Source: an uncultured Bartonella sp. (GTDB lineage: Bacteria; Pseudomonadota; Alphaproteobacteria; Rhizobiales; Rhizobiaceae). Taken from it: a DNA stretch of 64,000 nucleotides. The position numbers were made by a program, and so were the translations under genes. Shown one piece after another: positions 4,582 through 64,000 of the stretch. The DNA lies in assembly GCF_945285465.1 (NCBI RefSeq), contig NZ_CALYQK010000001.1, positions 61,694-125,693 of the forward strand. The letters run 5' to 3'. Position 1 is the stretch's first letter. Every line of letters starts with the position of its first letter. The notes under the pieces were generated by a model, which did not search any database, was not told where the DNA came from, and saw nothing but the letters and a program-made list of their open reading frames with translations.

Positions 4582-5409
4582 CTAACTATCACTTTTCATC
4601 CGTTTACGATGTTTTGGAGACCCCGCACCACGAGGAAGTTTCGGCGAAAAATGGTCAAGCGAGGAAACAACCCCACGCAACAGGCGCACTTCCGGTTCGC
4701 TAAAAGCCGCGCGGGTAAGCACAGAACGCAAATTTTCAACCATAATTTCCCTTCGTTCTTTAGGGCGAAAATAACCTCGTATATCCAGGGCTTCTTCAAG
4801 CTGATTGAAAAGGCCAAAGAGAGTAGCCTTATGCGCAGGCTCCATTTCGTCCTGACGAAAAGCTGTATCTGTTTGCCGATCAAGACCCGACTTCATCCAC
4901 TCATAAGACATAAGCAGAACTGCCTGAGCAATATTGAGCGATGAAAAAGCAGGATTTACAGGAAATGTCACAATTTCGTCTGTTAAACTTATTTCTTCGT
5001 TGTTGAGCCCCCATCGTTCCCTGCCAAAAAGAACGGCACAGCGCTCATGCTTATATTCTCTTTGACGCAGTATTCGAGCTGCTTCGACAGCGCTACGCAC
5101 CGGTTTAAATCCGTCACGTTCACGAGCTGTCGTCGCAAAGATATAATTCATATCACCAATTGCTTCACGCAAAGAGGGGAAAACCCGTGTATTGTTAATA
5201 ATGTGATCGGCTTTGCTTGCCGTAGCTATTGCTTTTTCATTGGGAAATTCCTCGCGCGGATTGACCAACCGCAATTCGGAAAGTCCGAAATTGGCCATTG
5301 CACGGGCGACCATTCCAATATTTTCCGGCAATTGCGGTTCTACCAACACAATAACCGGACCACCCGTCATATTCTGTCTTTTTCTATCTGTACCAGCCAT
5401 CATATTCAC
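4582..5409 (-). CDS. TrmH/TrmJ-family tRNA/rRNA methyltransferase
   Basis: SPOUT signature [53 protein letters not shown]. Confidence 0.9.
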
Positions 5410-5571
5410 TCAAAAATTTTGATATCTTTTAGAACCTCTTCCAGAAAACCTCAACAAAACATTATTTTTAATAGCCAAAAGAACGTGAAATTGCCTTTTT
5501 CGTGCCTAATTGCCGTCATTTTTGCGATTGATAAAACTCTTGCAACAGGTGCTAAAAAGGAAAACGTCAAA

Positions 5572-5682
5572 ATGAATATTGAAATGAGAACCACAATTAC
5601 CTTGATGGCTATGGCTGTTATCACGACAATCATGGTATTGTGCGCTAATCTGACAATGAGTAATGTATTAGCCGCCTTGTAA
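5572..5682 (+). CDS. putative 36-aa single-TM small protein
   Basis: MNIEMRTTITLMAMAVITTIMVLCANLTMSNVLAAL; AAGGAAAA upstream as possible SD; hydrophobic core; no homology evidence. Confidence 0.35.
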   Translation: MNIEMRTTITLMAMAVITTIMVLCANLTMSNVLAAL

Positions 5683-5747
5683 TTTTTTTAATGTTAATGA
5701 GTATTTTTATTATTTTGTAATATGAAATTATTTATTATTATAAAATA

Positions 5748-5889
5748 GTTATCAATTTTGATAACATCAATAATATTATATAATTAATATATATTTATAA
5801 AAATTATTTTATAAATATATATGAAAACGCTTTTTCAATTTAAACATTATATTACGTTAATTGATTTTATTTCAAAAAATAAAATCAAT
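5748..5889. repeat. cluster of three perfect AT-rich inverted repeats
   Basis: GTTATCAA-TT-TTGATAAC (5748-5765); ATATATATTTATAAAA-ATTA-TTTTATAAATATATAT (5787-5822); ATTGATTTTATTT-CAAA-AAATAAAATCAAT (5860-5889). Confidence 0.85.
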
Positions 5890-6241
5890 AAAATGACTAT
5901 TCATCATAATTCTGGTTCGTATTGCCTGTTTAAAATCACGATTTCACCAACTGCCATGCCTTTTTATTCACTTTAAAACCTGTAGCGGTAAAAAACGTCA
6001 TATCAAGTCAAACTTTTGCGAGTGTGCGAGAAATACCGTGCAATCTGAACTATCACTGGTTATGCTTTTTAGAATTCGTGATAAATTGAGGGTTTAGATC
6101 TTTCTTTTAACAGCTTATATCAATAACAAACATTGCAACAACAAACTTTTAATTAAATAAAAATATGCCTTATAAGCAAGCTCGGCACGCGAAATTGCCA
6201 GGAAAGCGTTAGGATATCTGGAAATAGAAAAAGTTAGGAAT

Positions 6242-8283: not shown

Positions 8284-9132
8284 TTATTCATGAATTAACT
8301 GATCCATAGACAATGCCGGTTCTTTATCTTCGGTCCTTCCGACCACCTTTGCAGGCACACCGGCAACGGTAGTATATGCCCCAACTGGTTTCAGGACAAC
8401 CGAACAGGCAGCAATTTTAGCGCAGTTCCCGATAACAATATTACCCAGAATCTTGGCGCCTGCACCAATAAGCACACCGTGACCAATTTTCGGGTGTCTG
8501 TCGCCTGATTCTTTACCGGTGCCTCCTAATGTAACATCTTGCAATATTGAAACATCATCACCAATGACTGCCGTTTCACCAATAACGAGCCCTGTCGCGT
8601 GATCAAGGAAAATACCTTTGCCAATTTTAGCGGCGGGGTGAATATCTGTCTGAAAAACAGATGACGAACGACCTTGAAGAAACAATGCCAGATCGCGACG
8701 CCCTTTCAACCACAAACTATGAGCAAAACGGTGGGTCTGTATCGCCAGAAAACCTTTAAGGTAAAGCACGGGTTCCATAAACCGGTTACAAGCCGGATCA
8801 CGGTGAAACACCGCCGATATATCCTTGGCTATTGTTTCTTCCAAATGCTCGATTGCGCTGATTTCTCCACAAAATATCTGATACAAAGTTTGTTCGTTGA
8901 TTTCACGTGTCCAAAGTCGTGCTGCCACACGTCCGGCGATCATATTGCGCAAACTTTCATGAGTTAAGATCGCACCACGTAAAAAAGCATCCAGAGCAGG
9001 ATCCTTATCCAAAGCAGATTTTGCTTCTTGTCTGATAGTATTGAAAAGTGCGACAGGGTCAATCATTTCCCCCATTTGTTCACAGCAACGCAATATTTTC
9101 CCCTCCGAATTCGACGCAGCTCTACTCATCAA
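8284..9132 (-). CDS. cysE: serine O-acetyltransferase
   Basis: Hexapeptide-repeat region DIHPAAKIGKGIFLDHATGLVIGETAVIGDDVSILQDVTLGGTGK. Confidence 0.96.
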   Translation of the reverse strand: MMSRAASNSEGKILRCCEQMGEMIDPVALFNTIRQEAKSALDKDPALDAFLRGAILTHESLRNMIAGRVAARLWTREINEQTLYQIFCGEISAIEHLEETIAKDISAVFHRDPACNRFMEPVLYLKGFLAIQTHRFAHSLWLKGRRDLALFLQGRSSSVFQTDIHPAAKIGKGIFLDHATGLVIGETAVIGDDVSILQDVTLGGTGKESGDRHPKIGHGVLIGAGAKILGNIVIGNCAKIAACSVVLKPVGAYTTVAGVPAKVVGRTEDKEPALSMDQLIHE

Positions 9133-9902
9133 GCAATTGGGTGGCGCGCTAAAAAATTGATAACACCTTTTTTATAGACCGGATCGCCAACGGCCAACAT
9201 ATGGTCGCGATTTGGAATAATAAGCACTTCGCCACGCGGCAAAAGGGCGGCAAGCGGCTCTGCTTCCCCCGATATTTCATCCAACGATCCGACAGCCACC
9301 AACGCCGGTTGTTTAATTGAATGAACTTCAGCTGCTGTCAATTCCTGTTTGGACGTTATAACACAGGCTGCCAGTGCTTTTCTATCGCTTTTGGTTCGGT
9401 CGGCAAATGTTCTAAACATCAAACCACGTTTGTTGGTGATCGTTGACACATCATCGGCAAGAAGAGCTTCAGCGACCGGTTCCCAATTTCCTGCACCGGT
9501 TATCATACCAATGCCGAGTCCGCCAAATATAGCGCTATTGACATAGTCCGGATTAAGAATGCTCATATAGGCAGTTATTCTTGCCCCCATCGAATAACCC
9601 ATGACTTGCGCCTTTTTTATGCCCAAATGGTCAAGAAGGGCAACAGCATCGCCTGCCATAGCTTGAGGTGTATAAACTGCCGGATCATCACTTTTATCCG
9701 AAAGTCCATGACCCCGGTTATCAATAGCAATAACCCTATATCCTGCCTCGTTCAAAACATGAAACCAGCCTGGTGCATACCAATTAACATAAGAGGAAGA
9801 AGCAAAACCATGAATTAATAGAACGGGATCACCCTCGCCTTCTTCCCGATAAGCAAGTCTAAAACCATCGTGATTGAAATATTGAACGTCTTCTGCACTC
9901 AT
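9129..9902 (-). CDS. alpha/beta hydrolase
   Basis: LLIHGFASS, GYSMGA nucleophile elbow, C-terminal RDHM. Confidence 0.9.
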   Translation of the reverse strand: MSAEDVQYFNHDGFRLAYREEGEGDPVLLIHGFASSSYVNWYAPGWFHVLNEAGYRVIAIDNRGHGLSDKSDDPAVYTPQAMAGDAVALLDHLGIKKAQVMGYSMGARITAYMSILNPDYVNSAIFGGLGIGMITGAGNWEPVAEALLADDVSTITNKRGLMFRTFADRTKSDRKALAACVITSKQELTAAEVHSIKQPALVAVGSLDEISGEAEPLAALLPRGEVLIIPNRDHMLAVGDPVYKKGVINFLARHPIA

Positions 9903-9904
9903 CT

Positions 9905-10384
9905 TTAATCCATTTTACATTCGCCACATATGACCGGATGAATGACCCTTTGGCCAATTCCGATAGCGTTTTTTTCAACCTCACCCGCGTTTAATTCAAT
10001 TGTAAAGGCTGCCGGCTCATGTGACGAGACAATTTCTGTTGAGTAAGGTGTTGTGTTTTTCGCAATCGAAACAATTATGCCCTTTTCATTAAGAAAAATC
10101 ATATCAAGCGGCAATGGTGTATTGGCCATCCACATTGTTATAATGTGCTCATCGGCAAAAATAAACAACATCGCTCGATTTTTCGGAAAATCCGTGCGAT
10201 ACATTAGTCCTTTTTCCGATTGCTCGCGTGTCTGCGCAATCTCGACATCATAGGCTACTTTTCCTGTCTGTGTCATAATGGTCAACGCAAACTCGTCAAC
10301 CGGCAGATGCATTGGCTGCTTTGCTGCAGCATCACCGCCGAAAATAATCAATAGACATAAAAGCCCGAAAAATAATTTCCGCAT
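9905..10384 (-). CDS. DUF192 domain-containing secreted protein
   Basis: Signal peptide MRKLFFGLLCLLIIFGGDAAA; EKGLMYRTDFPKNRAMLFIFADEHIITMWMANTPLPLDMIFL; alternative start 10411. Confidence 0.88.
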   Translation of the reverse strand: MRKLFFGLLCLLIIFGGDAAAKQPMHLPVDEFALTIMTQTGKVAYDVEIAQTREQSEKGLMYRTDFPKNRAMLFIFADEHIITMWMANTPLPLDMIFLNEKGIIVSIAKNTTPYSTEIVSSHEPAAFTIELNAGEVEKNAIGIGQRVIHPVICGECKMD

Positions 10385-10495
10385 AAATGTGGTACCGTTA
10401 AAAAGTCGCAACGATCACCCCGAAAAAAGCAGCACCAAACATGCCACTGACTCCTTCCAACTGACCGTTCGGTTCTCGTCGAAGTGATCGTTTAT

Positions 10496-11074
10496 CTAGT
10501 GCGTTGGAAACGGTGTTGCAATATCGGGATGAATTTCGGCAGCCATCAACCCTTTTTCCCCCGTGCCATAACGCACCAGTACCACCTGGCCGGGACGCAA
10601 CTCTGCCAAACCGAAGCGACGCAACGTTTCCATATGAATAAAAATATCTTCGGTTCCTTCGCCCCGTGTTAGAAAACCAAAACCTTTTTCTCTATTGAAC
10701 CATTTGACGATTGCCCGCTCCAGTCCACTTTCAGGGGTGACAACAACATGGGTGCGCGGTGGCGTTTCCGAGGGATGAACAGCTGTTGAAAGGTCGATGG
10801 ATTTTACCTGGATACATTGCAAACCACGGTCGCCTTTTTTAACCATGCAAACAATTCGTGCACCTTCAAGAGCCGTGTGAAAACCATCCCGCCGCATCAC
10901 TGTCACATGCAGAAGGATATCCGCAACACCGGCGATGTCCGGCACGATGAAACCATAGCCCTTGCTGACATCGAACCATTTGATGGTGCCGCTTAATTCG
11001 GCAACATCGGTTGATGCCGCTTCAGAACTATCTTGAGTTGGAAGAAATTCTTCCAGTATTTCATCGCTCGCCAT
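10496..11074 (-). CDS. cold-shock protein with two CSD domains
   Basis: GTIKWFDVSKGYGFIVPD and AIVKWFNREKGFGFLTRGEGTEDIFIHMETL. Confidence 0.93.
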   Translation of the reverse strand: MASDEILEEFLPTQDSSEAASTDVAELSGTIKWFDVSKGYGFIVPDIAGVADILLHVTVMRRDGFHTALEGARIVCMVKKGDRGLQCIQVKSIDLSTAVHPSETPPRTHVVVTPESGLERAIVKWFNREKGFGFLTRGEGTEDIFIHMETLRRFGLAELRPGQVVLVRYGTGEKGLMAAEIHPDIATPFPTH

Positions 11075-51566: not shown

Positions 51567-51642
<76 letters not shown>

Positions 51643-51668
51643 ATCTTTTCAATGAGTTAGAAGATAAT

Positions 51669-51697
51669 CCCAACCAAATGAACCATAATTGGTTGGG
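51669..51697 (+). terminator. stem-loop after tRNA-Thr, possible terminator
   Basis: CCCAACCAA...TTGGTTGGG. Confidence 0.45.
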
Positions 51698-52049
51698 GAA
51701 ATTATTTAGAGCGGTTTTTTCTGTGCCAATTTCTCGGTGAGAGAATTACTCTCTTCTCAAATTCTCAATTCACAATCTTCACCCACCCCCTCTACCTCTC
51801 CGGTGCCTGAAGAGGATCGAGCCCACTTGGCCAATGTCGATTTTTTGCTGTTTGCTGTGGATAACTGGCGGATTTCTTCCTATGCGTTTCAAAACGATAT
51901 GTATCGCTATGCCGCCATGAAACCCGCATGATCGCGCTGTGTCACGCCTTACCTGCACTGTACTTTCTTGGAAAAACCATCACTGTCTGGATAGTCGAAG
52001 TCAATCAGCTTCGGTGATCGGATCGGTATTGACTCGTCTTGCCGATCCG

Positions 52050-52140
52050 GGGCGCCTGTCGCCTTCTCCCCCCTTCCGGCGGCAGGCGTCCTTTTAACTG
52101 AAACGGGGCTGCCGTGTTGGAACCACGACACCCCCTTTTT
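52050..52140 (+). promoter_or_regulatory. two stacked stem-loops upstream of adhesin gene; the second is terminator-like
   Basis: 14-bp stem GGGCGCCTGTCGCC/GGCGGCAGGCGTCC (two G-U wobbles, 52050-52091); GGGGctgcCGTG-ttggaac-CACGacacCCCC then TTTTTT (52105-52141). Confidence 0.6.
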
Positions 52141-52180
52141 TGACCAACCCATGACCCTACAGACATAAAGATGATGTTAT

Positions 52181-53359
52181 ATGTATAAACCAGATTTCCT
52201 TATAAATACAGACGCCGGCAAGGCCGGTTTGATCCGCAGATCATCGTCACTGCTCGCAGGTAGTGCGGCATTGTTGTTCTTGTTCAACGCAGCCGCTTTT
52301 GCCGAAGGTGGCCAGCCTGGGCCTGATCCAATCAATGGTGTTTGTGTGATTAAGACACAAAAAGTCTACAATAAAGAAACGGGCGTTTTTGATGACAGCT
52401 TTTATTGGGGCACATCCACCACTGGTGAAAACCAAAGTGGCGACCAAACCTGTCAAAGCAAGAAGCTTCCCGATCTTCGTTTTCTTGACAAGCTATCAAA
52501 CTCCGGTGCCGGGGATGGCGAGATCAGCAACACGATCAAGGACCTCGAAAACAAGGTCAATGAGAAAAACAAGGAACAGGATGATCGTCTTGATGCGGGT
52601 GAGGCAAAGGACAAAGAACAGGACGGACGCCTTGATGGACATGACAAGGACATCGGCGACCTGAAAGACAAGGATAAAGAGCAGGACAACCGTCTGGATT
52701 CCGGCGATGTAAAAGACAAGGAACAAGACGGCCGTCTTGATGGTCATGACAAGGATATTGACCGCCTTGATCGTCTGAGCGTCAAATATGTCGCCGACGA
52801 AAACGGCAATCCGACCAATCATGTAATCCTGAGCGGCGATGGCACCGGCTCACCGGTACGCCTGAGCAATGTTGATCGCGGACGTGTGGACAGCGATGCC
52901 GTCAATGTCAGCCAACTGAAGGATACGGTCGGCCTGCTTGGCGGAGGTGCAAGTGTCAATGGCGACGGCAGCATCACAGGCCCGACCTATAATATCGGCG
53001 CCAACAGCTATCACACTGTCGGCGATGCCTTCACTGCCACCAATGACCGCATCGACATGCTGTCATGCGATACCGCCTATCAGATCAGTCGTCTTGACGG
53101 ACGGATTTCCGATGTGAAGAGCGAGGCGCGATCCGGCATTGCCGGAGCAAACGCCTTTGCAGCGCTTCGTTACAATGATTCTCCGGGTGCTGCTTCGCTT
53201 GCCATGGCCTTTGGCGGCTTCAAGTCACATCGCGCCATGGCGATCGGCGCCGGATACACAACCTCGGATGGCGTCTTCCGCGTCAATGCCGCTCTCAACC
53301 GGCCCTTCAATACCGGTGATATGGGCTGGAATGCCGGCATGAGCTGGACGTTTAACTGA
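52181..53359 (+). CDS. YadA-type trimeric autotransporter adhesin (compact)
   Basis: Extended signal peptide; heptad coiled-coil stalk; DSDAVNVSQLKD neck; C-terminal YadA anchor SGIAGANAFAALRYNDSPGAASLAMAFGGFKSHRAMAIGAGYTTSDGVFRVNAALNRPF..WNAGMSWTFN. Confidence 0.92.
   Translation: MYKPDFLINTDAGKAGLIRRSSSLLAGSAALLFLFNAAAFAEGGQPGPDPINGVCVIKTQKVYNKETGVFDDSFYWGTSTTGENQSGDQTCQSKKLPDLRFLDKLSNSGAGDGEISNTIKDLENKVNEKNKEQDDRLDAGEAKDKEQDGRLDGHDKDIGDLKDKDKEQDNRLDSGDVKDKEQDGRLDGHDKDIDRLDRLSVKYVADENGNPTNHVILSGDGTGSPVRLSNVDRGRVDSDAVNVSQLKDTVGLLGGGASVNGDGSITGPTYNIGANSYHTVGDAFTATNDRIDMLSCDTAYQISRLDGRISDVKSEARSGIAGANAFAALRYNDSPGAASLAMAFGGFKSHRAMAIGAGYTTSDGVFRVNAALNRPFNTGDMGWNAGMSWTFN
52571..52780 (+). repeat. 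2 x 105-bp tandem repeat encoding the 35-aa coiled-coil stalk
   Basis: KEQDDRLDAGEAKDKEQDGRLDGHDKDIGDLKDKD / KEQDNRLDSGDVKDKEQDGRLDGHDKDIDRLDRLS. Confidence 0.88.
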
Positions 53360-54030
53360 TGATCAAAACAGTTAGTTTGACTTTCATCATCGCTCTCGGC
53401 CTGTCGCATAATGCGCAGGCCGCAGAGACCGTATCGCAATCAATTGCCATCAAGGAAAGCGTCAGACCTGCGTCAGGCTTCAAGCTGCCGCCGCTGACCA
53501 AGCTTTATGACAACGGCTTCATGCCGGAACCAGGTGACATCATCAACCTTGACCGGCCTTTCGGCAACTGGTCTCTCAAATGCGAGCTTCTGCTGTCACA
53601 GGACAGGCGCTTGTGCCGGACTGAACAGACAATGCGTTCCGGCTCCGACCAACTGACATGGCGGATTGTGCTGACAACGGACAATATTCCCTATGTCGTC
53701 ATCACCACCAATGCCGGTATTGATCTCTCCAGCGGGATCAGGATGGGCTTTTCGGCAATCGAGAAAACACTGCAATCTCCTGATGAAGTTGGTTGTACCG
53801 ACAAAGCCTGCTTTGCTGCTTTTCCGTTTATCGGCTTCGTCCAGGCGGCGATCCTCGGCTCTCAGGATGTGTGGTTTTCCTATCGAAAGGATGACCGTGA
53901 CGTGCATCTCATCAATTCGATGGCAGGCTTGAAAGAAGCCCTGCAAGCCTCCGCCACCAATCCATACGGGCAAGTCGATAAAGAAAAACCGCTGGAAGCA
54001 CAAAAGACGAAAAAGTCCGCAAGGAATTAA
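53359..54030 (+). CDS. invasion-associated locus B (IalB) family protein
   Basis: Signal peptide; NLDRPFGNWSLKCELLLSQDRRLCRTEQTM; GCTDKACFAAFPF; starts within adhesin stop (TGATG). Confidence 0.85.
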   Translation: MIKTVSLTFIIALGLSHNAQAAETVSQSIAIKESVRPASGFKLPPLTKLYDNGFMPEPGDIINLDRPFGNWSLKCELLLSQDRRLCRTEQTMRSGSDQLTWRIVLTTDNIPYVVITTNAGIDLSSGIRMGFSAIEKTLQSPDEVGCTDKACFAAFPFIGFVQAAILGSQDVWFSYRKDDRDVHLINSMAGLKEALQASATNPYGQVDKEKPLEAQKTKKSARN

Positions 54031-54041
54031 GATCACGCCAG

Positions 54042-54079
54042 AGATAAACCCGGCATAGCAATATGCCGGGCTTATCTTT
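54042..54079 (+). terminator. terminator stem-loop after the IalB-family gene
   Basis: AGATAAaCCCGGCATA-GCAA-TATGCCGGGcTTATCTTT. Confidence 0.75.
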
Positions 54080-54142
54080 ATATGGCGATTGTTTTATAAT
54101 CACAGTGCTGATCGACCTCTCTTATTTTTGGAGGATTCGTTT

Positions 54143-54247
54143 ATGCAAAAAATGGTGATTCAACAGTGCCCAATACAGATCGCAGGATTTTTAAATCCTA
54201 TAAAGTTTGAAATTACTGGCAATAAAGATCATAACATGAACGAATGA
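54143..54247 (+). CDS. putative 34-aa smORF upstream of candidate defense gene
   Basis: MQKMVIQQCPIQIAGFLNPIKFEITGNKDHNMNE; GGAGG 8 nt before ATG; TATAAT at 54095-54100. Confidence 0.45.
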   Translation: MQKMVIQQCPIQIAGFLNPIKFEITGNKDHNMNE

Positions 54248-54266
54248 GTCTCGTATATTAAAATAA

Positions 54267-55280
54267 ATGGGTGTGAATATAATCGAAGGCACTCCAATGA
54301 AATGGAAAACTAGAAGTATCAGGGAACTTGCGAAAATCATTTGTGGTGACACAGATTATTTTCGCTATCGTTCAAGCTCATACATCACTGAGTTCTTTCA
54401 AGATTGTGGCTTGGATTACGTTCATGATGGCACGACTCGCCAAGTTTGGGTAACAGAAAGGTTCAAACAAGTGCTGGCGCTACCCCAAACCGGCATTTCA
54501 ATCCCTTCCTATGCTTTTATCCAGATTATACGCGCTGTCCTTGACAAAGGAGATGCGCAAGAAGGAGACTGCGACGGAGAAAAAGCACTGACCGTTCTAA
54601 ATGCGGTACTGTCTCGCAAAGGTTGGGAAGCATACTTTGACGAGCATAATGTTGCTCAACTTCGTCATATTGGTACGAATACGGTCACCGAAATGGCTAA
54701 CCCTCATCGCCCGTTAACTCCAGATGAAATTCAAATCAGAGATAGGCTTTCCATATACATGGGAACTTGTTCCGAGGATGATCTGATTGAGGAAATTCTG
54801 CTGCCATTATTTCGGCAATTGGGTTTTCATCGGATTACAGCTTCTGGCCACAAAGACAAAGCGCTTGAATATGGTAAAGACATATGGATGAAATATTCTT
54901 TGCCAACCCTTCATGTCTTATATTTCGGTATACAAGCTAAGAAAGGAAAGCTTGATTCAGCAGGCATGAGCCGGAACGGCTCTAATAATATCGGCGAAAT
55001 TTATAATCAAGTAAGTATGATGCTCGGACACGAGATATTCGATCCAGAGCTCAATCGACGTGTTCTAGTTGATCACGCGTTTATCGTTGCCGGTGGTGAA
55101 ATAACGAAACAGGCAAGAAATTGGCTTGGTAACAAGCTAGATGCAGCAAAGCGCTCGCAGATCATGTTTATGGATAAAAATGATATTCTTGACCTATTTA
55201 TCGTCACAAAACTGCCATTACCCAAAGGACTAATTTCTGTGGAAAGGAACACAGATATTCTTGATGAGGTACCTTTTTAA
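54267..55280 (+). CDS. hypothetical protein; AbiJ-NTD-like N-terminus and Mrr-like PD-(D/E)XK nuclease-like C-terminus (candidate anti-phage protein)
   Basis: N-term RELAKIICGDTDYFRYRSSSYITEFFQDCGLDYV...; C-term LEYGKDIWMKYSLPTLHVLYFGIQAKKGKLD (D...QxK) and AFIVAGGEITKQARNWL; better start may be 54297. Confidence 0.6.
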   Translation: MGVNIIEGTPMKWKTRSIRELAKIICGDTDYFRYRSSSYITEFFQDCGLDYVHDGTTRQVWVTERFKQVLALPQTGISIPSYAFIQIIRAVLDKGDAQEGDCDGEKALTVLNAVLSRKGWEAYFDEHNVAQLRHIGTNTVTEMANPHRPLTPDEIQIRDRLSIYMGTCSEDDLIEEILLPLFRQLGFHRITASGHKDKALEYGKDIWMKYSLPTLHVLYFGIQAKKGKLDSAGMSRNGSNNIGEIYNQVSMMLGHEIFDPELNRRVLVDHAFIVAGGEITKQARNWLGNKLDAAKRSQIMFMDKNDILDLFIVTKLPLPKGLISVERNTDILDEVPF

Positions 55281-55314
55281 ACGATTGGGCATCTGCGAGC
55301 TAAACAAAATAGCG

Positions 55315-55551
55315 TTATGGTGAAGCACCATTCAATCGTCGTTTTTTCGCCTCCCTGAAGGATCTGTCATTTGTGATGAAGTTTTCGAGCATTGGGGCGA
55401 TGAGGGATTGAGGTTCAACGCTCCTGCCGGGGTGATCGACTGAGAGGATTTCTGCATAAAGCTCAATGTCGCGGTAGAGGGCAGCGGAAAGCTGTACCCT
55501 CAAATTGACGGGCTTTTCCTCGGCCGGCAAGGTGATACGAAGTTTGCTCAT
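55315..55551 (-). CDS. DUF2274 domain protein (trb-associated)
   Basis: MSKLRITLPAEEKPVNLRVQLSAALYRDIELYAEIL...; immediately downstream of trbI. Confidence 0.85.
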   Translation of the reverse strand: MSKLRITLPAEEKPVNLRVQLSAALYRDIELYAEILSVDHPGRSVEPQSLIAPMLENFITNDRSFREAKKRRLNGASP

Positions 55552-55611
55552 GAATGTTCTCCATAAGGGCTTTCCGAAAAGTGTGAAGCGGTTTTCGGAT
55601 AAAAAGCCCGT

Positions 55612-56805
55612 TCAATTTAAGATGTACAGCGATGCATCGCTGTAAGGTTCAAGGACAATATCGCGTGTGATGATGACGCGGATCGGGAAGCCCGGCCGCA
55701 CGGTCAGTGTCGGCGCGATATTCAACTGCCGGTCAACGATCTTCTGTCCGGCATCGTTAAAGGTATCCTGCGCCCCGTTGCGGATGGCGCGGACAAGACG
55801 GTCATCGTCATCATCCATGGCCAGTTCCGAGCCGACGGACAAGAGCGTTGACAGGGCCGCGGCCTTGGTCAACTGCCACCAGTGATAATCAACCTTGTCC
55901 TGAACGCCTGCATAACCTGAAGCGTCAGCACCGGGCTGACGCTCAAGCACGATCGAACGGCCATTGGCGAAGATCAGCCGGTTCCAGACGAAGAGCACAC
56001 GCGACTGGCCGAAGGCGACGGCATTGTCATATTGACCGATGAGGCGCGTTCCCTGCGGGATAAGCAGAATGCGCCCTGTCGGGCTGTCATAAATGTTCTG
56101 TGTCACCTGCGCGGTGATCTGGCCCGGGAGATCAGAACGAATGCCGGTGAGGAGTGCCGCCGGAATGACCGAGCCTGCTTGCAGGATGTCGCGTGAGGCG
56201 GGTGCGGCAATCCGTTCGGACGAGACAGTTCTGGTGTCGCTTTTCGCGTCAAGGAATGCCTGTTGGCGTGACGCATGATCGTTGCCGCCCATCTGTGAGA
56301 CAGGTGTAAAGTCGGGCAACACAGGCAGTGATGTGTCACCGCCCGCATGACTGCTGCCGCTGTCCTTTGCCTTGGTCTGGCTTTCGGTAAAGAGCGTGGC
56401 GGTGCGGGCTGTCTCACCCTCCTGACGCAGCTTCTGTTTGAGTTCAGCTTCATAGGGATCAACCGTCGGCAAGGCTTCAACCGGCGCTGTCGTTGCAACC
56501 GGCTTATCGACCATGGCGGCCCCAAGATCGCCCGGCAATGGGTTCCCAAGAACCGGCCCAGTATAATCCTTTGGCAGAGCGCGCAGGCTATCCGGCAGAT
56601 TGCGGCCGTCGAGGGAATAGAGTTCAGCCGCCCGCCCGCCGTCATGGCGCGATTGAAAAGCATAGATCAGCGAACCGCCGATAACGGCACTGCCAAGCAC
56701 ACCGACACCGATGAGCATCTTTCTTGACAGGCGTTTCACCTGCGGCGGTGCGGCGTGCAGTTTCATGGAGGCGTTTTGTTCCTGCTTGCTCATTTCCGGC
56801 TCCAT
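55612..56805 (-). CDS. trbI: conjugal transfer protein TrbI (VirB10-like)
   Basis: ILLIPQGTRLIGQYDNAVAFGQSRVLFVWNRLIFANGRSIVLERQPGADASGYAGVQDKVDYHW. Confidence 0.96.
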   Translation of the reverse strand: MEPEMSKQEQNASMKLHAAPPQVKRLSRKMLIGVGVLGSAVIGGSLIYAFQSRHDGGRAAELYSLDGRNLPDSLRALPKDYTGPVLGNPLPGDLGAAMVDKPVATTAPVEALPTVDPYEAELKQKLRQEGETARTATLFTESQTKAKDSGSSHAGGDTSLPVLPDFTPVSQMGGNDHASRQQAFLDAKSDTRTVSSERIAAPASRDILQAGSVIPAALLTGIRSDLPGQITAQVTQNIYDSPTGRILLIPQGTRLIGQYDNAVAFGQSRVLFVWNRLIFANGRSIVLERQPGADASGYAGVQDKVDYHWWQLTKAAALSTLLSVGSELAMDDDDDRLVRAIRNGAQDTFNDAGQKIVDRQLNIAPTLTVRPGFPIRVIITRDIVLEPYSDASLYILN

Positions 56806-57827
56806 AATGACTTTCGTTGACCGTCACTGCGCTCGATGCGGACAGATTTCTGCTTCGCGTTGCGGCCGTCACCAAGCTTGAGCTCTGCAGCGGCAAACAG
56901 CGTATCGACAACCATATAATTGTCACGGACGCGATAGTTGACGAGTTCGGAGTCTTTGCCGTCAGGGGCGACGACGAATAGCGGCGGCATCTCGCCCTGG
57001 GCGATACCGCGCGGAAACTCGATGAACACCTGACGGCCGTCATCATAGGCGCGAACGGGCCGCCATGGTGCACGGTCGCCCTTGATGGCATAACGGAAGT
57101 TGAGCTTCGACACGTCCACATTGCCCGCCACGGGTTCAGCATTGCGTGCCCGGGCATTCTGCTGGCGCAGCGCAATGATCTGGTCTTGCGGATATTGCCA
57201 CATGACCGAGGCCATGTAGGTCTCATCCGTTGACCTGAGTTCCAGATGATAGGTGCGGCGATTGGTGTTGATGACAAGATTGGTGGTGAGATCGGCGCGC
57301 ACCGGCTTGACGAGGATATGGATCTGCCGGTTGTCACCGGCGCCGCTTTCCGTGTCGCCGATAATCCAGCGGACGGTATCTCCAGCGGCAACCGGCCCGT
57401 TGCCGACAAGTTCTTCGCCCGGCTGCAACGCAATATCCGTCACCTGCCCGACTGCCGAATAAACCTGATAGAGCGCACCCGCAGTATAGGGATAAACCTG
57501 CATGGAGTTAATGAAGCCGTCCTTGACCGGTTCCATGCGCGCCGTGCTGTTGGCCTTTTCGATGCGATCGGTCGGCTTTGATGTGTCCGGTTCCTTCCTT
57601 ATTGCCTTAATCGGCTTCAACTGCCCCGGTAGCGGCAGGGGCTTAGCGGTCTCGACAATTCTGACCGGTGCGGGCTTCTCCGGTGACAAGGCTGCCGGCA
57701 AGGGCATGTTGTCATAAGCGATCTCGGGCGGCCTGTTGTCGGCACAACCGGCAAGGACTGAGGTTGCACCAAGAAAAGCAATGACAAGTTTGGTATTTCC
57801 GGCTTTTGATGGAATAGAAGCGGTCAT
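56790..57827 (-). CDS. trbG: conjugal transfer protein TrbG (VirB9-like), lipoprotein signal
   Basis: MTASIPSKAGNTKLVIAFLGATSVLAGCADNRPPE; YRVRDNYMVVDTLFAAAELKLGDG. Confidence 0.93.
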   Translation of the reverse strand: MTASIPSKAGNTKLVIAFLGATSVLAGCADNRPPEIAYDNMPLPAALSPEKPAPVRIVETAKPLPLPGQLKPIKAIRKEPDTSKPTDRIEKANSTARMEPVKDGFINSMQVYPYTAGALYQVYSAVGQVTDIALQPGEELVGNGPVAAGDTVRWIIGDTESGAGDNRQIHILVKPVRADLTTNLVINTNRRTYHLELRSTDETYMASVMWQYPQDQIIALRQQNARARNAEPVAGNVDVSKLNFRYAIKGDRAPWRPVRAYDDGRQVFIEFPRGIAQGEMPPLFVVAPDGKDSELVNYRVRDNYMVVDTLFAAAELKLGDGRNAKQKSVRIERSDGQRKSLWSRK

Positions 57828-58513
57828 TCTGCGAGTTCCTTTGACCAGTTGATGGCATCGACATAAACGCCGAGCGGATTGGATTTGAGTTTTTCGGCAC
57901 TGCGCGGTTGTTGCAGTACAAGGGTGAGAATGGCGGTCCAACGTTCGGTTTCGGCAAGCGATCCGTCGGCATAACGCCGCTCGATCCACGCAACGCGAAA
58001 CGATGTCAGGGAGGCACGAATAACCGATGAGACTTCAACGGCAATCTGCTCGCGGCCAACCTTGGCAAAAGGATCGTTGGTGCGGGCAAAATCATTCAAG
58101 GCCGATGCACCATTGTTGGTGGTATATTCATAGGCGTTGAGCCAGTTTTGGCGAACGATCACCGCGTCGTTTGGAACGGCGCGTACCTCTTCAATGAAGT
58201 GGGCGAGATGCCAGGCGATCTGCGCATCCGACGGTGTGAACCTGTCTGTAGCGGGCTGAACGGTGCGTGCTTCACCAAGCTTATCGACTTCAACTACCCA
58301 AGGCACGACGGTGCCGCTTGCTGAGTGGATGATAAGGGCTGCGGCAAAACCGGCGGTCAGCGTCAGGTTGCCGAGGGCGATCAGCCGCCAGTTTCTGGCC
58401 TGCACACGGGCGGAGCCGATGCGCTCATCCCAGACCTGCCCGGCCTTTTGATAAGGGGTTTCAGGTTGCGGCGTCTTGCCGTAACGTGTGGAAGGTCGCT
58501 TGAAGATGTTCAT
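57824..58513 (-). CDS. trbF: conjugal transfer protein TrbF (VirB8-like)
   Basis: TPYQKAGQVWDERIGSARVQARNWRLIALGNL; WVVEVDKLGEA. Confidence 0.95.
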   Translation of the reverse strand: MNIFKRPSTRYGKTPQPETPYQKAGQVWDERIGSARVQARNWRLIALGNLTLTAGFAAALIIHSASGTVVPWVVEVDKLGEARTVQPATDRFTPSDAQIAWHLAHFIEEVRAVPNDAVIVRQNWLNAYEYTTNNGASALNDFARTNDPFAKVGREQIAVEVSSVIRASLTSFRVAWIERRYADGSLAETERWTAILTLVLQQPRSAEKLKSNPLGVYVDAINWSKELAE

Positions 58514-58515
58514 GT

Positions 58516-59817
58516 TTAGTCGCTTTCTTTTAAATTGATGGAGTTACCGTTGCCGCTGCTGTCGCCGGACTTGAGCGCATGGCCGGCAGTATTGGCAGCC
58601 TGGCTCATGGACGGTGTTTTTGGCGGTGGCTTCGGCGGTTTCGGTGACGGGTTCAGTCCATCATCCTCAAGCGTGCCGCCGGTGGCGCGGTAAGCGCCCT
58701 TCATACCGGCGACATGGGCTTGTGACAGGCTGATGGCAGCTCCTGATGCGACCTTTCGCAAGGGTGAGACGGCAGCGGCCGCGCCGGTTTTGGCCGCATT
58801 GCCGAGGCCGGAGAGAACGGCTTTCCCGCCTGTCTCACCGGCGCTTCCCAGAGCGTAGCCAAGGCGCGCGCCGCCTGCTGCGGCGCTCAAGCCACGCGCT
58901 GCCGCACCGGTGGCTGAGGCAGCCGCACCGACACCGGTGGCGGCTAGACCGACAGCAGCAGCACCGCCCATGCCGACCATCATGCCGGTTGCAGCCGCAG
59001 AGCCTGCGCCCATTTGCGGCCCGCCGGAAACAAGGCCGTCGGCAATCTTAGGCCCGAAGATCGACAGGCCAAGCAGGGAAAGGCTGGCCAGGATAACCGT
59101 CAGGCACTGGTCGATTGTCAGGGCTGGTCCGCCAAAACCATTGGTGAACTCGGCAAAGATCGTCGATCCGATGCCGATGATGACAGCAATCACCATCACC
59201 TTTATGCCGGACGAGATCACATTGCCGAGCACCTTTTCGGCCATGAAAGCTGATTTGCCGAAGAGGCCGAAGGGTATGAGGACAAAGCCGGCGAGCGTCG
59301 TCAGCTTGAACTCCATGAGCGAGATGAAGAGCTGGATCGCCAGAATGAAGAATGCCGCGACGACAAAGATCAAAGCCAGCATGATGCAGGTGATCTGAAG
59401 GAAGTTTTCAAAAAAGGCGTAAGGCCCCATCAGGTCGGACATGGAGGCGGCAAGTGGATTGGCAGCGTCAAGTCCGAACTGCGCAACCTTGCCGGGCTTC
59501 ATCAGGTCGCCGAGCGCATAACCGGAACCCGCAGCCTTGAGGCCGAGACCGGCAAAGCTTTGATAGATGATTGTCGAGAGCGTGCCCCAGAAGTTGATGA
59601 TAAAGGCAAAAGAGCCGATATAGAGCGTCTTCTTGACTAGACGTTGCAGGATATTCTCGTCATTGCCCCAGGCCCAGAACAGGAAGGCCAGCGTCAGGTC
59701 GATGACGATCAGCGTTGCGGCAATAAACTTCACCTCATCCGACAACAGGCCGAGACCGCTGTCGATATATTTGCTGAATGTATTAAGGAAGCGATCGATA
59801 ACACCGACATCGTTCAT
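58516..59817 (-). CDS. trbL: conjugal transfer protein TrbL (VirB6-like)
   Basis: Multiple TM helices; MNDVGVIDRFLNTFSKYIDSGLGLLSDEVKFIAATLIVIDLTLAFLFWA; Ala/Gly-rich C-terminus. Confidence 0.95.
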   Translation of the reverse strand: MNDVGVIDRFLNTFSKYIDSGLGLLSDEVKFIAATLIVIDLTLAFLFWAWGNDENILQRLVKKTLYIGSFAFIINFWGTLSTIIYQSFAGLGLKAAGSGYALGDLMKPGKVAQFGLDAANPLAASMSDLMGPYAFFENFLQITCIMLALIFVVAAFFILAIQLFISLMEFKLTTLAGFVLIPFGLFGKSAFMAEKVLGNVISSGIKVMVIAVIIGIGSTIFAEFTNGFGGPALTIDQCLTVILASLSLLGLSIFGPKIADGLVSGGPQMGAGSAAATGMMVGMGGAAAVGLAATGVGAAASATGAAARGLSAAAGGARLGYALGSAGETGGKAVLSGLGNAAKTGAAAAVSPLRKVASGAAISLSQAHVAGMKGAYRATGGTLEDDGLNPSPKPPKPPPKTPSMSQAANTAGHALKSGDSSGNGNSINLKESD

Positions 59818-60092
59818 GGTCGGCCTCCCGATCTGTCAATATTGAGGAAATGCTCGCGGTTCTTTTGCCAGACAGCCATGCAGGACGGATCCCGATGCGC
59901 TGCTTCACCCAGCGACTGGCAGCGGCGCAGGTCTTTTGTAATATCGTTTTGCTGTGCGCCGGACTGTTTCGTAGAAAGAGGTGCAATTGTCGCGACCGAT
60001 GGGACTGCATACCAGGCGGCAACGCCGGTGACGATGACCGAGAGGGCAACGACGAGACCAAGACGAAGGAACATGCCTGTATCGTCACTCAT
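59814..60092 (-). CDS. TrbK-alt-like putative entry exclusion protein
   Basis: N-terminal TM and C-terminal RRCQSLGEAAHRDPSCMAVWQKNREHFL; between trbJ and trbL. Confidence 0.8.
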   Translation of the reverse strand: MSDDTGMFLRLGLVVALSVIVTGVAAWYAVPSVATIAPLSTKQSGAQQNDITKDLRRCQSLGEAAHRDPSCMAVWQKNREHFLNIDRSGGRP

Positions 60093-60805
60093 TGGCTCGG
60101 CTTCCCGTTATAGGCCGGGCCGCGCTGCAAAAAACGACGACGCTGTTCGCGTCCCTGTTCGGCTGCTGCCGCGCGTTCCGCCGCTTCGAGATCAGCCGCC
60201 CTGCCCGATAACGCGGAAATCGCGATAAGATCCGAGATCTGCGTGGCCAATACGCTCAAAAGTTGATTGCCGGCCTGCAAAGCCTGCAACGAGCCTTCGG
60301 CGGACTGGCTCTTCTCGACAAGCTTTTTGGTCTCGGTCTTATTGTTTTCAATATTATCGACGACTTGCGCCTGAACACGCATCGAGTCCTGAATGCCGCC
60401 GACGGTATTGCGCAATCTCTGTCTCGCGTCCTCGACCAATTTCTTGTCCGAGGCTGACATGTCGGCTTCGCCGTAGGTCGTGCGGAACTGCTCATCGATG
60501 TTCTTGACATTGTAGGAGATGTTCTGCGCGTCTTTCAAAAGCATCTGTGTTTGGGCAATATTGTCCTGCAATTTCAAAAGCGAATTGTAATCGAGCTGCG
60601 TCAGGTTTTTGGTCTGGTTGATGAGCATCTGCGCCTGATTTTGCAGGCTCTTGATCTGGTTGTTGATCTGCTCAAGCGCGCGCGGGGCCGAAAGGACATT
60701 TTGTGTGTAGTTTGACGGATCGAAGACCGTCAGAGCCTGTACCGGTTCGGCAAGTGTGACCGCGGCAATAAGTGCGGGAAGAATATAGGATGAACGGAAA
60801 GTCAT
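60089..60805 (-). CDS. trbJ: conjugal transfer protein TrbJ (VirB5-like)
   Basis: Signal peptide; FDPSNYTQNVLSAPRALEQINNQIKSLQNQAQMLINQTKNL. Confidence 0.95.
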   Translation of the reverse strand: MTFRSSYILPALIAAVTLAEPVQALTVFDPSNYTQNVLSAPRALEQINNQIKSLQNQAQMLINQTKNLTQLDYNSLLKLQDNIAQTQMLLKDAQNISYNVKNIDEQFRTTYGEADMSASDKKLVEDARQRLRNTVGGIQDSMRVQAQVVDNIENNKTETKKLVEKSQSAEGSLQALQAGNQLLSVLATQISDLIAISALSGRAADLEAAERAAAAEQGREQRRRFLQRGPAYNGKPSQ

Positions 60806-60816
60806 GAGAGTGTTCC

Positions 60817-63267
60817 TTATGCGGCAATGGAAGTTTCAGGGATGAGATCGAGCGCCCAGTCGAGGCTCTTGTGGACAAGCCATGCGGGCAGAAATCCATC
60901 CGGCGGTTGGGTAGAGGTGATGTCAGAGATCGCTCTTTGATCGTCTTTTGACGATGCGGCGCAAAGTGCCAGTGCGATTTCGGAGAGGCCAAGCTCGAAC
61001 AGGCGGTTGCCGCGCCGTGACTGGCAATAGTAATCTCGCTTGAGGGCTGCCCGCGCCAATATTTCGATCTGTCGGTCATTGAGGCCGAAGCGGCGGTAAA
61101 TATCCATGATTTGTGGCTCGATCGCCCGGTCATTCGGCAACAAAAGCCTTGTGTGGCAGCTTTCGATGATTGCCGGGGCGATGGCGCTACCGTCAATATC
61201 GGACAAGGACTGCGTGGCGAAGATGACAGATGCATTCTTCTTTCTGAGTGTCTTCAGCCATTCGCGCAATTGATCGGCAAAGCCGGTATCGCCGAGCGCC
61301 AGCCAGCCTTCGTCGATGATAAGCAAAGTCGGACGGCCGTCGAGACGATGTTCAATGCGATGGAAGAGATAGGCGAGTACTGCCGGTGCGGCACTGGTGC
61401 CGATCAGCCCTTCGGTTTCAAAAGCCTGAACTGTTCCGTTACTAAGATTTTCGTTCTCGGCATCGAGTAAACGGCCATTTGCGCCGCCGATGCAGTAAGG
61501 CCGGATCGCCTGTTTCAGATCATTGTTCTGCAACAGGACAGAGAAACCGGTGAGCGTGCGCTGCTCAGACGGGGCCGAGGCAAGTGATGACAAGGCCGCC
61601 CAGATATGTTCCTTGACCTCCGGCGTGATAGCGATGTTTTCTCGTTTGAAGATATCGACCAACCAATCGGCCGCCCATGCCCGCTCCGGTATGTCATTGA
61701 TACCGGCCAAGGGCTGCAAAGTGACGCCGCTATCTTTACTGCCCCCATCATCGGCAACGTCATCGGCAATACCGCCGAGATCATGCCAGTCGCCGCCCAT
61801 GGCGAGCGTTGCGGCACGGATCGAACCGCCGAAGTCAAAGGCGAAGATCTGGTTGTTGCGATAACGACGAAATTGCAGCGCCATCAGCGACAACAGCACT
61901 GACTTGCCCGCACCCGTCGGCCCGACAACCAATGTGTGGCCGACATCACCGACATGAAGATTGAAGCGGAACGGTGTAGCGCCTTCCGTCTTGGCATAAA
62001 AGAGCGGCGGCGCTTCGAAATGCTCGTCCTTCGGTTCACCGGCCCAGACAGCCGACAGCGGCATCATATGAGCGAGATTGAGCGTTGACAGGATCGGTTG
62101 CCGGACATTGGCATAAGCGTGGCCCGGCAGACTGCCGAGCCAGGCATCAACCGCATTGACGGTTTCGATCATACAGGTGAAGTCGCGGCCCTGGATGGCC
62201 TTCTCGACCAGCCGCAGCTTCTCGTCAGCAAGCGCCGCATCCTCATCCCATACGGTTACAGTCGCGGTGACATAGGCTTCGCCGACATAATCCGCACCCA
62301 GTTCCTGCAATGCAAGATCGGCATCGGCTGCCTTGTTGGCGGCGTCACTGTCAAGGAGGGAGGAAGGCTCGTTGGTCATCACCTCCTTGATGAGCGCGCC
62401 GATCGACTTCCTCTTGGCAAACCATTGGCGGCGCGCCTTGATAAGCACCTTCGCCGCATCAACTTTGTCCATCAATATGGCGCGGGTTGACCAGCGGTAA
62501 GGGAATGCAAGACGGTTCAAGTCATCGAGAATGCCCGGCGTCGTCTCACCGGGGAAGCCGGTGATCGTCAACACCCGCAAATGGCTGGTGCCGAGAATCG
62601 GCGCGAGACCGCCGGTCAAGGGTTGGTCTGCGAGAAGGCTGTCGAGATACATCGGCACTTCAGGCACACGCACACGGTGGTATTTGGTAGATATGGCGGA
62701 ATGGAGATAGGTCAGCGTTTCGCTGTCATCAAGAAAGGCGCAATCCGGCATGAAACCTTGCAAAAGGGCCAGCACTCGATCTGTGCGATCCTTGAACGCG
62801 GCAAGCACGTCCTTCGGGTCAAGGCCGCCCTTGGTCTCGCCTTCATAGAACCAGCCCTGCATGCGTGCCGCTTCTTCCGATGGCGGCAGATAAAGAAAGG
62901 TCAGAAAGTAGGACGATTCATAATGCGCGCCTTCTTCCTCGAAGGCCGCCTTGCGTTCAAGATCAACCAAAGCGGAAGCGGCATCAGGAAAGACATTATC
63001 GGGATAATCCGCCGCTTCGCGCCGTTGCGCCTCGACAAACACCGCCCAGCCTGAGCCAAGGCGGCGAAAAGCGTTATTAAGCCGGGCAGCGACGGCGACC
63101 AGTTCGGCGGGAACCGAGCTGTCGAGATCAGGCCCGCGAAAGCGCACCGACCGCTGGAACGAACCGTCCTTATTGAGCACAATGCCCGGTGCGATCAAAG
63201 CTGCCCATGGCAGGTAGTCGGCGAGATGGCTGTTGGTTTTACGGTATTCAGCAAGATTGAACATCAA
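60817..63267 (-). CDS. trbE: conjugal transfer ATPase TrbE (VirB4-like)
   Basis: Walker A VVGPTGAGKSVLLSLMALQF; LLIIDEGWLALGD. Confidence 0.98.
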   Translation of the reverse strand: MMFNLAEYRKTNSHLADYLPWAALIAPGIVLNKDGSFQRSVRFRGPDLDSSVPAELVAVAARLNNAFRRLGSGWAVFVEAQRREAADYPDNVFPDAASALVDLERKAAFEEEGAHYESSYFLTFLYLPPSEEAARMQGWFYEGETKGGLDPKDVLAAFKDRTDRVLALLQGFMPDCAFLDDSETLTYLHSAISTKYHRVRVPEVPMYLDSLLADQPLTGGLAPILGTSHLRVLTITGFPGETTPGILDDLNRLAFPYRWSTRAILMDKVDAAKVLIKARRQWFAKRKSIGALIKEVMTNEPSSLLDSDAANKAADADLALQELGADYVGEAYVTATVTVWDEDAALADEKLRLVEKAIQGRDFTCMIETVNAVDAWLGSLPGHAYANVRQPILSTLNLAHMMPLSAVWAGEPKDEHFEAPPLFYAKTEGATPFRFNLHVGDVGHTLVVGPTGAGKSVLLSLMALQFRRYRNNQIFAFDFGGSIRAATLAMGGDWHDLGGIADDVADDGGSKDSGVTLQPLAGINDIPERAWAADWLVDIFKRENIAITPEVKEHIWAALSSLASAPSEQRTLTGFSVLLQNNDLKQAIRPYCIGGANGRLLDAENENLSNGTVQAFETEGLIGTSAAPAVLAYLFHRIEHRLDGRPTLLIIDEGWLALGDTGFADQLREWLKTLRKKNASVIFATQSLSDIDGSAIAPAIIESCHTRLLLPNDRAIEPQIMDIYRRFGLNDRQIEILARAALKRDYYCQSRRGNRLFELGLSEIALALCAASSKDDQRAISDITSTQPPDGFLPAWLVHKSLDWALDLIPETSIAA

Positions 63268-63531
63268 TCATACTCCAAAGAAGTTGGGAAAGCGCAGGTG
63301 ACGGCGGCCGACATCGACAAACAGCGGATCGCGTTTTGCCGCCCATACGGCGATAACATGACCGATGAGGCCGAGGGCCGCACCGATCAGCCACAGCCGC
63401 AGGCCAAGCCCGAGCGATGCGGCAAGCGTGCCGTTCAAAATGGCGAAGGAACGCGGCGCACCGCCAAGCAGGATCGGCGTCGTCAATGAGCGGTGCAGGG
63501 AAATGGAAAAACCGGAAATCTCTTCGCTCAT
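63268..63531 (-). CDS. trbD: conjugal transfer protein TrbD (VirB3-like)
   Basis: ISLHRSLTTPILLGGAPRSFAILNGTLAASLGLGLRLWLIG; abuts trbE. Confidence 0.94.
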   Translation of the reverse strand: MSEEISGFSISLHRSLTTPILLGGAPRSFAILNGTLAASLGLGLRLWLIGAALGLIGHVIAVWAAKRDPLFVDVGRRHLRFPNFFGV

Positions 63532-64000
63532 TGGATCAATGCCCCACCGGAAAATGAGAAGAACGACAGGAAGAAGGAACTGGCGGCAAAGGCGATAGAG
63601 AGACCGAAGACGATCTGGATCAGTCGCCTGACACCGCCGGAACTATCGCCAAAGGCAAGCGCCAGACCGGTCGAGATGATGATCATCACCGAGATGATCT
63701 TGGCGACGGGGCCTTCGACCGATTGCAGGATTTTTGTCAGCGGCCCTTCCCACGGCATTGAAGACCCGGCGGCAAAGGCAGACGAATGAATGGTGACAAG
63801 CGCCGTCGTGGCGAGCGCCACAACCGAGGTGCTACGGCGAAGAAGCAGGCTTTTGGGTTTCCCTGCCTTCTCGGTTGCCTGGCCTTTTGCTGCCCGTTGT
63901 ACCTGTTCGCTTTTTGCGGCGTGTGATTTTGTCTTGCCTGTTGCGGCACGCGATTGAATTTTGCCGGTTGCGGCGCGCGGTGTGTGGGTTTTTTCCTGCA
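63528..64000 (-). CDS. trbC: conjugal transfer protein TrbC (VirB2-like pilin), 5' end outside window
   Basis: VEGPVAKIISVMIIISTGLALAFGDSSGGVRRLIQIVFGLSIAFAASSF; frame stays open to the window edge: QEKTHTPRAATGKIQSRAATGKTKSHAAKSEQVQRAAKGQATEKAGKPKSLLLRRSTSVVALATTALVTIHSSAFAAG. Confidence 0.9.
   Translation of the reverse strand, partial: QEKTHTPRAATGKIQSRAATGKTKSHAAKSEQVQRAAKGQATEKAGKPKSLLLRRSTSVVALATTALVTIHSSAFAAGSSMPWEGPLTKILQSVEGPVAKIISVMIIISTGLALAFGDSSGGVRRLIQIVFGLSIAFAASSFFLSFFSFSGGALIQ

Follow-up and report, generated by a model that had tools for sequence, protein, structure and literature searches.

MspJI and AspBHI, two nucleases of solved structure, use a catalytic motif of the D..QAK type, the type that is also found in the nuclease family described here. 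AbiJ-NTD domains, as presented by Anantharaman et al. 2013 (PMC3710099), precede HEPN domains, Mrr-type restriction endonucleases, kinases, TIR domains, and nucleoside deoxyribosyltransferases. The SSB-Ct tip has the sequence DDDIPF (PMC5872125), and Nhi, Hachiman, and retron Eco8 are defense systems that are linked to phage SSB and respond to it (PMC12904381). The locus examined here lies in a stretch of 64,000 nucleotides from an uncultured Bartonella sp. (the window), in which one gene encodes a protein composed of the following parts.

54297–55280, + strand: gene for a 327-aa sensor-nuclease protein (invariant M1; relatives 53–74% identical)
54297–54701, + strand: mostly helical, putative AbiJ-type sensor domain at the N-terminus, residues 1–135 (structure prediction; shared with other effectors)
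54720–55205, + strand: Mrr/MspJI-type PD-(D/E)XK nuclease domain, residues 142–303 (topology; fold matches to AspBHI and MspJI)
54879–54941, + strand: catalytic motif D195-x17-Q213-x-K215 (conservation in 113 members)
55254–55277, + strand: SSB-like C-terminal tip DILDEVPF (PF ending in 98 of 112 members; the SSBs of the same genome end alike)

A preliminary description of this DNA had claimed a 337-aa ORF, which is indeed present at 54267–55280, and had offered 54297 as the better start; the latter is favored because the methionine at this position is invariant across 56 aligned relatives, which gives 327 aa. All of the motifs that it cited were located in the sequence. Searches of Pfam, PADLOC, and NCBIfam returned 0 matches for the window protein, and no sequence relative with a solved structure was found for the whole 327 aa. 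The locus had been called undescribed, which applies to the family but not to the type of architecture, since this was predicted in 2013 (PMC3710099). The SSB-like C-terminal tail and an integrative element with its att repeat are new relative to that description.

The surroundings of the gene comprise the features listed below.

51594–51642, + strand: attL, the 3' 49 bp of tRNA-Thr(TGT) (exact repeat beside the integrase, where the element ends)
52181–53359, + strand: YadA-like trimeric autotransporter, ICE cargo (YadA_anchor 1.9e-10, YadA_stalk 1.9e-7)
53359–54030, + strand: upstream gene lacking a match in the Pfam search
54049–54070, + strand: intrinsic terminator of the upstream gene, with a 9-bp stem
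54143–54247, + strand: 34-aa smORF with a GGAGG Shine-Dalgarno sequence before its ATG, not conserved (ORF list, similarity searches)
55315–55551, − strand: DUF2274 gene, end of the trb conjugation operon (match 1.9e-19)
60817–63267, − strand: TrbE/VirB4-type ATPase of the conjugation operon (P-loop_TraG 2.1e-12, CagE_TrbE_VirB 1.9e-7)

The tRNA-Thr(TGT) gene occupies 51567–51642, and an exact 49-bp copy of its 3' end lies on contig C85 of the same genome, adjoining a tyrosine integrase gene (Arm-DNA-bind_3, Phage_integrase) that is followed by a metE-like gene. In the relative G284, both flanks are contiguous at the same spacing, i.e., the site is empty. The att repeats and the empty site, together with the trb conjugation genes, thus identify an ICE integrated at tRNA-Thr, which extends past the contig end at window position 64000. 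The nuclease gene is cargo of this ICE, situated between the YadA-like autotransporter with its uncharacterized neighbor on one side and the trb operon, which ends in DUF2274, on the other. The element, which had previously gone unmarked, spans 51567–64000 of the window and C85. As separate observations, the same tRNA bears another duplicated att in the relative G342, about 47 kb apart, and a sequence of 28–40 bp lying between the DUF2274 gene and its neighboring trb gene (window 55571–55610) recurs as short tandem arrays in many genomes of the genus. At 42% GC, the nuclease gene is near the chromosomal value of 45%, whereas the two genes upstream of it have 53% and 52% and the trb operon has 57%, in agreement with the A+T-richness that had been reported relative to the flanks.

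The smORF had been presented as a companion with a strong GGAGG sequence, isolated by a terminator. Both the ORF and its Shine-Dalgarno sequence exist, and the terminator is real, but it ends the upstream gene, and the smORF and the nuclease follow each other without a separating element. No match to the smORF was obtained in plasmids or in related nuclease loci, and nothing convincing was obtained in 71 genomes of the genus (best other E 0.26). Since no relatives exist in any of the collections searched, the smORF was rejected as a companion and is not considered part of the system.

In an AlphaFold2 model from a 56-row alignment (pLDDT 79), residues about 142–303 follow the PD-(D/E)XK order of helices and strands. 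The top fold matches in the PDB are AspBHI (E = 3.6e-4) and MspJI (E = 4.5e-3). D195 and K215 are conserved in 113/113 members and Q213 in 112/113, and E160, D161, D187, and E191 are likewise invariant among the 113. The combination of a PD-(D/E)XK fold with D..QxK, which characterizes Mrr-type restriction endonucleases, is therefore present, and the earlier proposal of a Mrr-like C-terminal nuclease stands in the sense of a Mrr/MspJI fold with these residues. Plain Mrr membership by Pfam was rejected; Mrr_cat is matched weakly and below the cut-off by 6 of 56 members (best E 0.01; hhalign P = 0.007). The identity of the C-terminal domain as a nuclease is well supported, and the domain probably cleaves DNA.

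Predicted alone, the N-terminal domain reached a pLDDT of 88 and a pTM of 0.82, and neither a PDB fold search nor a sequence search with it returned a relative. AbiJ_NTD3 of Pfam is matched weakly, below the cut-off, by 4 of 56 relatives (best E 0.016) and not by the window protein itself; a pairwise hhalign comparison with AbiJ_NTD3 gave P = 7.6e-5 over 42 columns. The family profile matches L220 (E 1.3e-4), which carries Abi_C (PF14355, E 5e-20) C-terminally, such that the N-terminal domain is shared with Abi_C proteins, as expected of the AbiJ-NTD superfamily in the loose sense. It also matches L219, in which the N-terminal domain is joined to a deoxyribosyltransferase-like domain (the latter judged by motifs alone), and the same architecture is found in L262, from a viral contig. 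Furthermore, the first ~110 positions of the PADLOC family Stk2 are matched colinearly, though weakly (E about 0.003), by two members; a search with the Stk2 family for further N-terminal homologues yielded kinase domains only. Because the domain recurs before Abi_C and at the front of Stk2, it can fairly be called an AbiJ-type sensor domain, whereas stating that it is AbiJ would not be fair. Plain AbiJ membership was rejected, as the AbiJ N-terminal domain remains below the cut-off and a nuclease fold occupies the C-terminal position of HEPN/Abi_C. The AbiJ-like sensor and Mrr-like nuclease of the preliminary description thus hold broadly for both halves, the former through its position before Abi_C and the Stk2 match, but not as strict AbiJ membership, given the weak similarity to AbiJ_NTD3. 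On these comparisons, the N-terminal domain appears to behave as a sensor module with exchangeable effectors.

The same two domains could be read as those of a type IV modification-dependent restriction enzyme, in which the N-terminal domain would read modified bases, the Mrr-like domain would cut, and the tail would only help to localize the enzyme. The closest solved folds, AspBHI and MspJI, are modification-dependent, and the nuclease is solitary, with no methyltransferase partner conserved. However, the N-terminal domain matches neither SRA nor any other solved domain and is also joined to non-DNase effectors, which suits a sensor more than it does a base reader; moreover, this reading offers no explanation for the tail. 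We therefore consider a type IV enzyme improbable.

The C-terminal tail is variable and predicted with low confidence, and it closes with acidic residues followed by hydrophobic-Pro-Phe exactly at the C-terminus, which is the arrangement of an SSB-Ct-like sequence. This tip (..DDIPF) occurs in 98 of 112 full-length members and in 34 of 39 clusters at 80% identity; the PF ending is missing in the other 14, e.g., in Acinetobacter and some Streptomyces. Among the ~5,300 other ORFs of the same loci, 11 (about 0.2%) share the ending, including two SSBs, four Shedu proteins adjoining the nuclease, and L262. The last of these, at 4986–5963 of its viral contig, ends in EEDFEIPF and so represents a second type of effector with an SSB-like tip.

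The tip was compared with the host's own main SSB in 51 genomes. Actinobacterial SSBs end in (E/D)PPF, and the nucleases in EPPF in 10 of 12 cases; SSBs of Bacteroidetes end in (D/N)LPF, and the nucleases in DLPF in three of four, the remaining one in DLSF. The two SSBs of the Bartonella genome end in DDDVPF and HEDNKVPF, and the window nuclease ends in LDEVPF. Residue −3 is identical in nuclease and host SSB in 37 of 51 pairs, where shuffling predicts 18.1, and in 27 of 39 pairs without the actinobacteria, where 20.6 are expected (p = 0.0008). L067, an actinobacterial member that a tree made without the tail places apart from the main actinobacterial clade, nevertheless ends in EEPPF. Independent contrasts on the tree amount to 2–4 pairs, too few for significance in a formal phylogenetic test, so ancestry explains part of the agreement; V at residue −3 in L017, L029, and L033, whose hosts' SSBs have I or were unchecked, counts against tracking. 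Taken together, the tip appears to track the host's own SSB, partly through ancestry.

The agreement between tip and host SSB suggests a partner protein able to read host SSB tails, which might belong to the replication or repair machinery of the host or might come from a phage and hijack the host's SSB. We propose, with somewhat better than even confidence, a stand-alone nuclease against phages or other invaders, carried as ICE cargo, in which the AbiJ-type domain would sense or gate, the Mrr/MspJI-type PD-(D/E)XK domain would cut DNA, and the SSB-Ct-like tip (D/E-D/E-hydrophobic-P-F) of the flexible tail would dock on the usual SSB-binding proteins, so that the enzyme might act, or be triggered, at intermediates of replication or recombination. 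The computed support consists of the fold, the catalytic residues, the tail, the swapping of domains, and the mobility; the defense role, i.e., protection from phages, is the presumed outcome. In an unlikely variant, the tail would be an integrated decoy, a host-matched bait. Phage proteins of recombination or replication that use the host's SSB tail as a docking site, such as Redbeta/Sak-like annealases and phage helicases or primases, would bind it and thereby free the nuclease. The decoy, if true, would explain why the tip matches the host's own SSB; the phage annealase Sak80alpha, for its part, functions with the SSB tail of its own phage (PMC11846896). No account of an SSB-Ct-like tail on a defense nuclease was found in the literature, most subscription papers lying outside the search. 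Mimicry of an SSB tail by a defense nuclease would be a new way of targeting or sensing invaders, and the idea lends itself to direct testing, since the final residues can be removed or exchanged between host types.

Relatives that are 53–74% identical over their full length occur in Proteobacteria, Actinobacteria, Bacteroidetes, Acidobacteria, Planctomycetes, and others, with a patchy distribution over plasmids, prophages, ICEs, and chromosomes. The family is carried by 46 plasmid records (24 conjugative), by 16 viral contig loci of IMG/VR, and by 191 of 5,426 E. coli genomes, where it is almost always chromosomal; the single E. coli copy inspected lies in a cryptic prophage. Within the taxonomic family of the window, 4 of 299 genomes carry it, and at the level of the phylum 7 of 399 do; no match was found in the phage records searched.

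Neighboring genes in other genomes were also considered. Neighbors matched 71 PADLOC families (150 ORFs), as compared with 10 for 142 control ORFs from other regions of the gene-carrying genomes; as the counts refer to families and not to proteins, the comparison is indicative. In Blastomonas, the nuclease has RM genes on one side and Fic/PIN genes on the other; an IncI plasmid of E. coli carries it together with Abi, TIR, and S-4TM genes, and in Ensifer it is located near an ABC-three-component system. In four Pseudomonas loci (L066, L075, L079, and L080), Shedu (SduA) follows directly downstream after about 90 bp, at about 9070–10570, and likewise ends in acidic residues and DLPF. An SSB-like tail was rejected as a general feature of Shedu, since most of the other Shedu proteins examined lack it, and viral contigs contained no relatives of the nuclease-adjacent Shedu. 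In at least L075, L079, and L080, a small gene resembling an exonuclease (about 155 aa; in L075 with a weak Rv2179c-like match) precedes the pair, which suggests a three-gene defense operon in Pseudomonas. The PADLOC families and the adjacent Shedu make a role in defense plausible, but housekeeping neighbors are also common.

Directly upstream of the nuclease, enterobacterial plasmid copies (L083, L084, L085, L103, and L108) carry vapBC, which, along with the location at an ICE end and the conjugative plasmids counted above, would suit a device for competition or stability of mobile elements that would attack incoming plasmids or ICEs or else enforce retention, perhaps together with vapBC. As vapBC is missing from most other loci and from the Bartonella window, and copies are also chromosomal and in prophages, we judge this the least probable reading. 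In Ensifer, xth, ligD, and a mutasome-type operon also adjoin the nuclease, and the E. coli copies occupy a single cryptic prophage site; both, like the SSB-like tail, would agree with a nuclease that has an accessory part in DNA repair or fork processing, is recruited via SSB-binding proteins, and does not serve defense. Such a role is very unlikely in view of the patchiness and the mobile elements described above, the occurrence of the sensor domain with abortive-infection effectors, and the RM, Abi, TIR, ABC-3C, and Shedu genes close by. No conserved partner gene exists across 80 loci, vapBC and Shedu being lineage-specific; the nuclease gene accordingly appears to work alone, and single-gene defense cargo is plausible from its sequence context. 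This would assign a function to a conserved, widespread family for which Pfam, NCBIfam, and PADLOC have no model.

Among known systems, the AbiJ-NTD–Mrr fusions are similar in that a small N-terminal AbiJ-type sensor and a Mrr-like nuclease share one gene; the Bartonella N-terminal domain, however, misses the cut-off of Pfam AbiJ_NTD3, and an SSB-like tail is not mentioned in the accessible part of that source (PMC3710099). MspJI and AspBHI provide the closest solved folds of the nuclease domain, but their SRA-like base-reading domain is absent from the Bartonella protein, which has a helical N-terminal domain instead. AbiJ/Abi_C proteins place a related N-terminal domain before Abi_C, as in L220, and have a HEPN RNase where the present family has a DNase domain. 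Shedu (SduA) is likewise a single-gene PD-(D/E)XK defense nuclease with a variable N-terminal sensor, and its copies next to the nuclease in four Pseudomonas loci also end in DLPF, whereas SduA_C (DUF4263) is not found in the nuclease family. Nhi, Hachiman, and retron Eco8 similarly tie SSB biology to defense nucleases; however, these systems respond to phage SSB, whereas the nuclease family itself bears the SSB-like tip.
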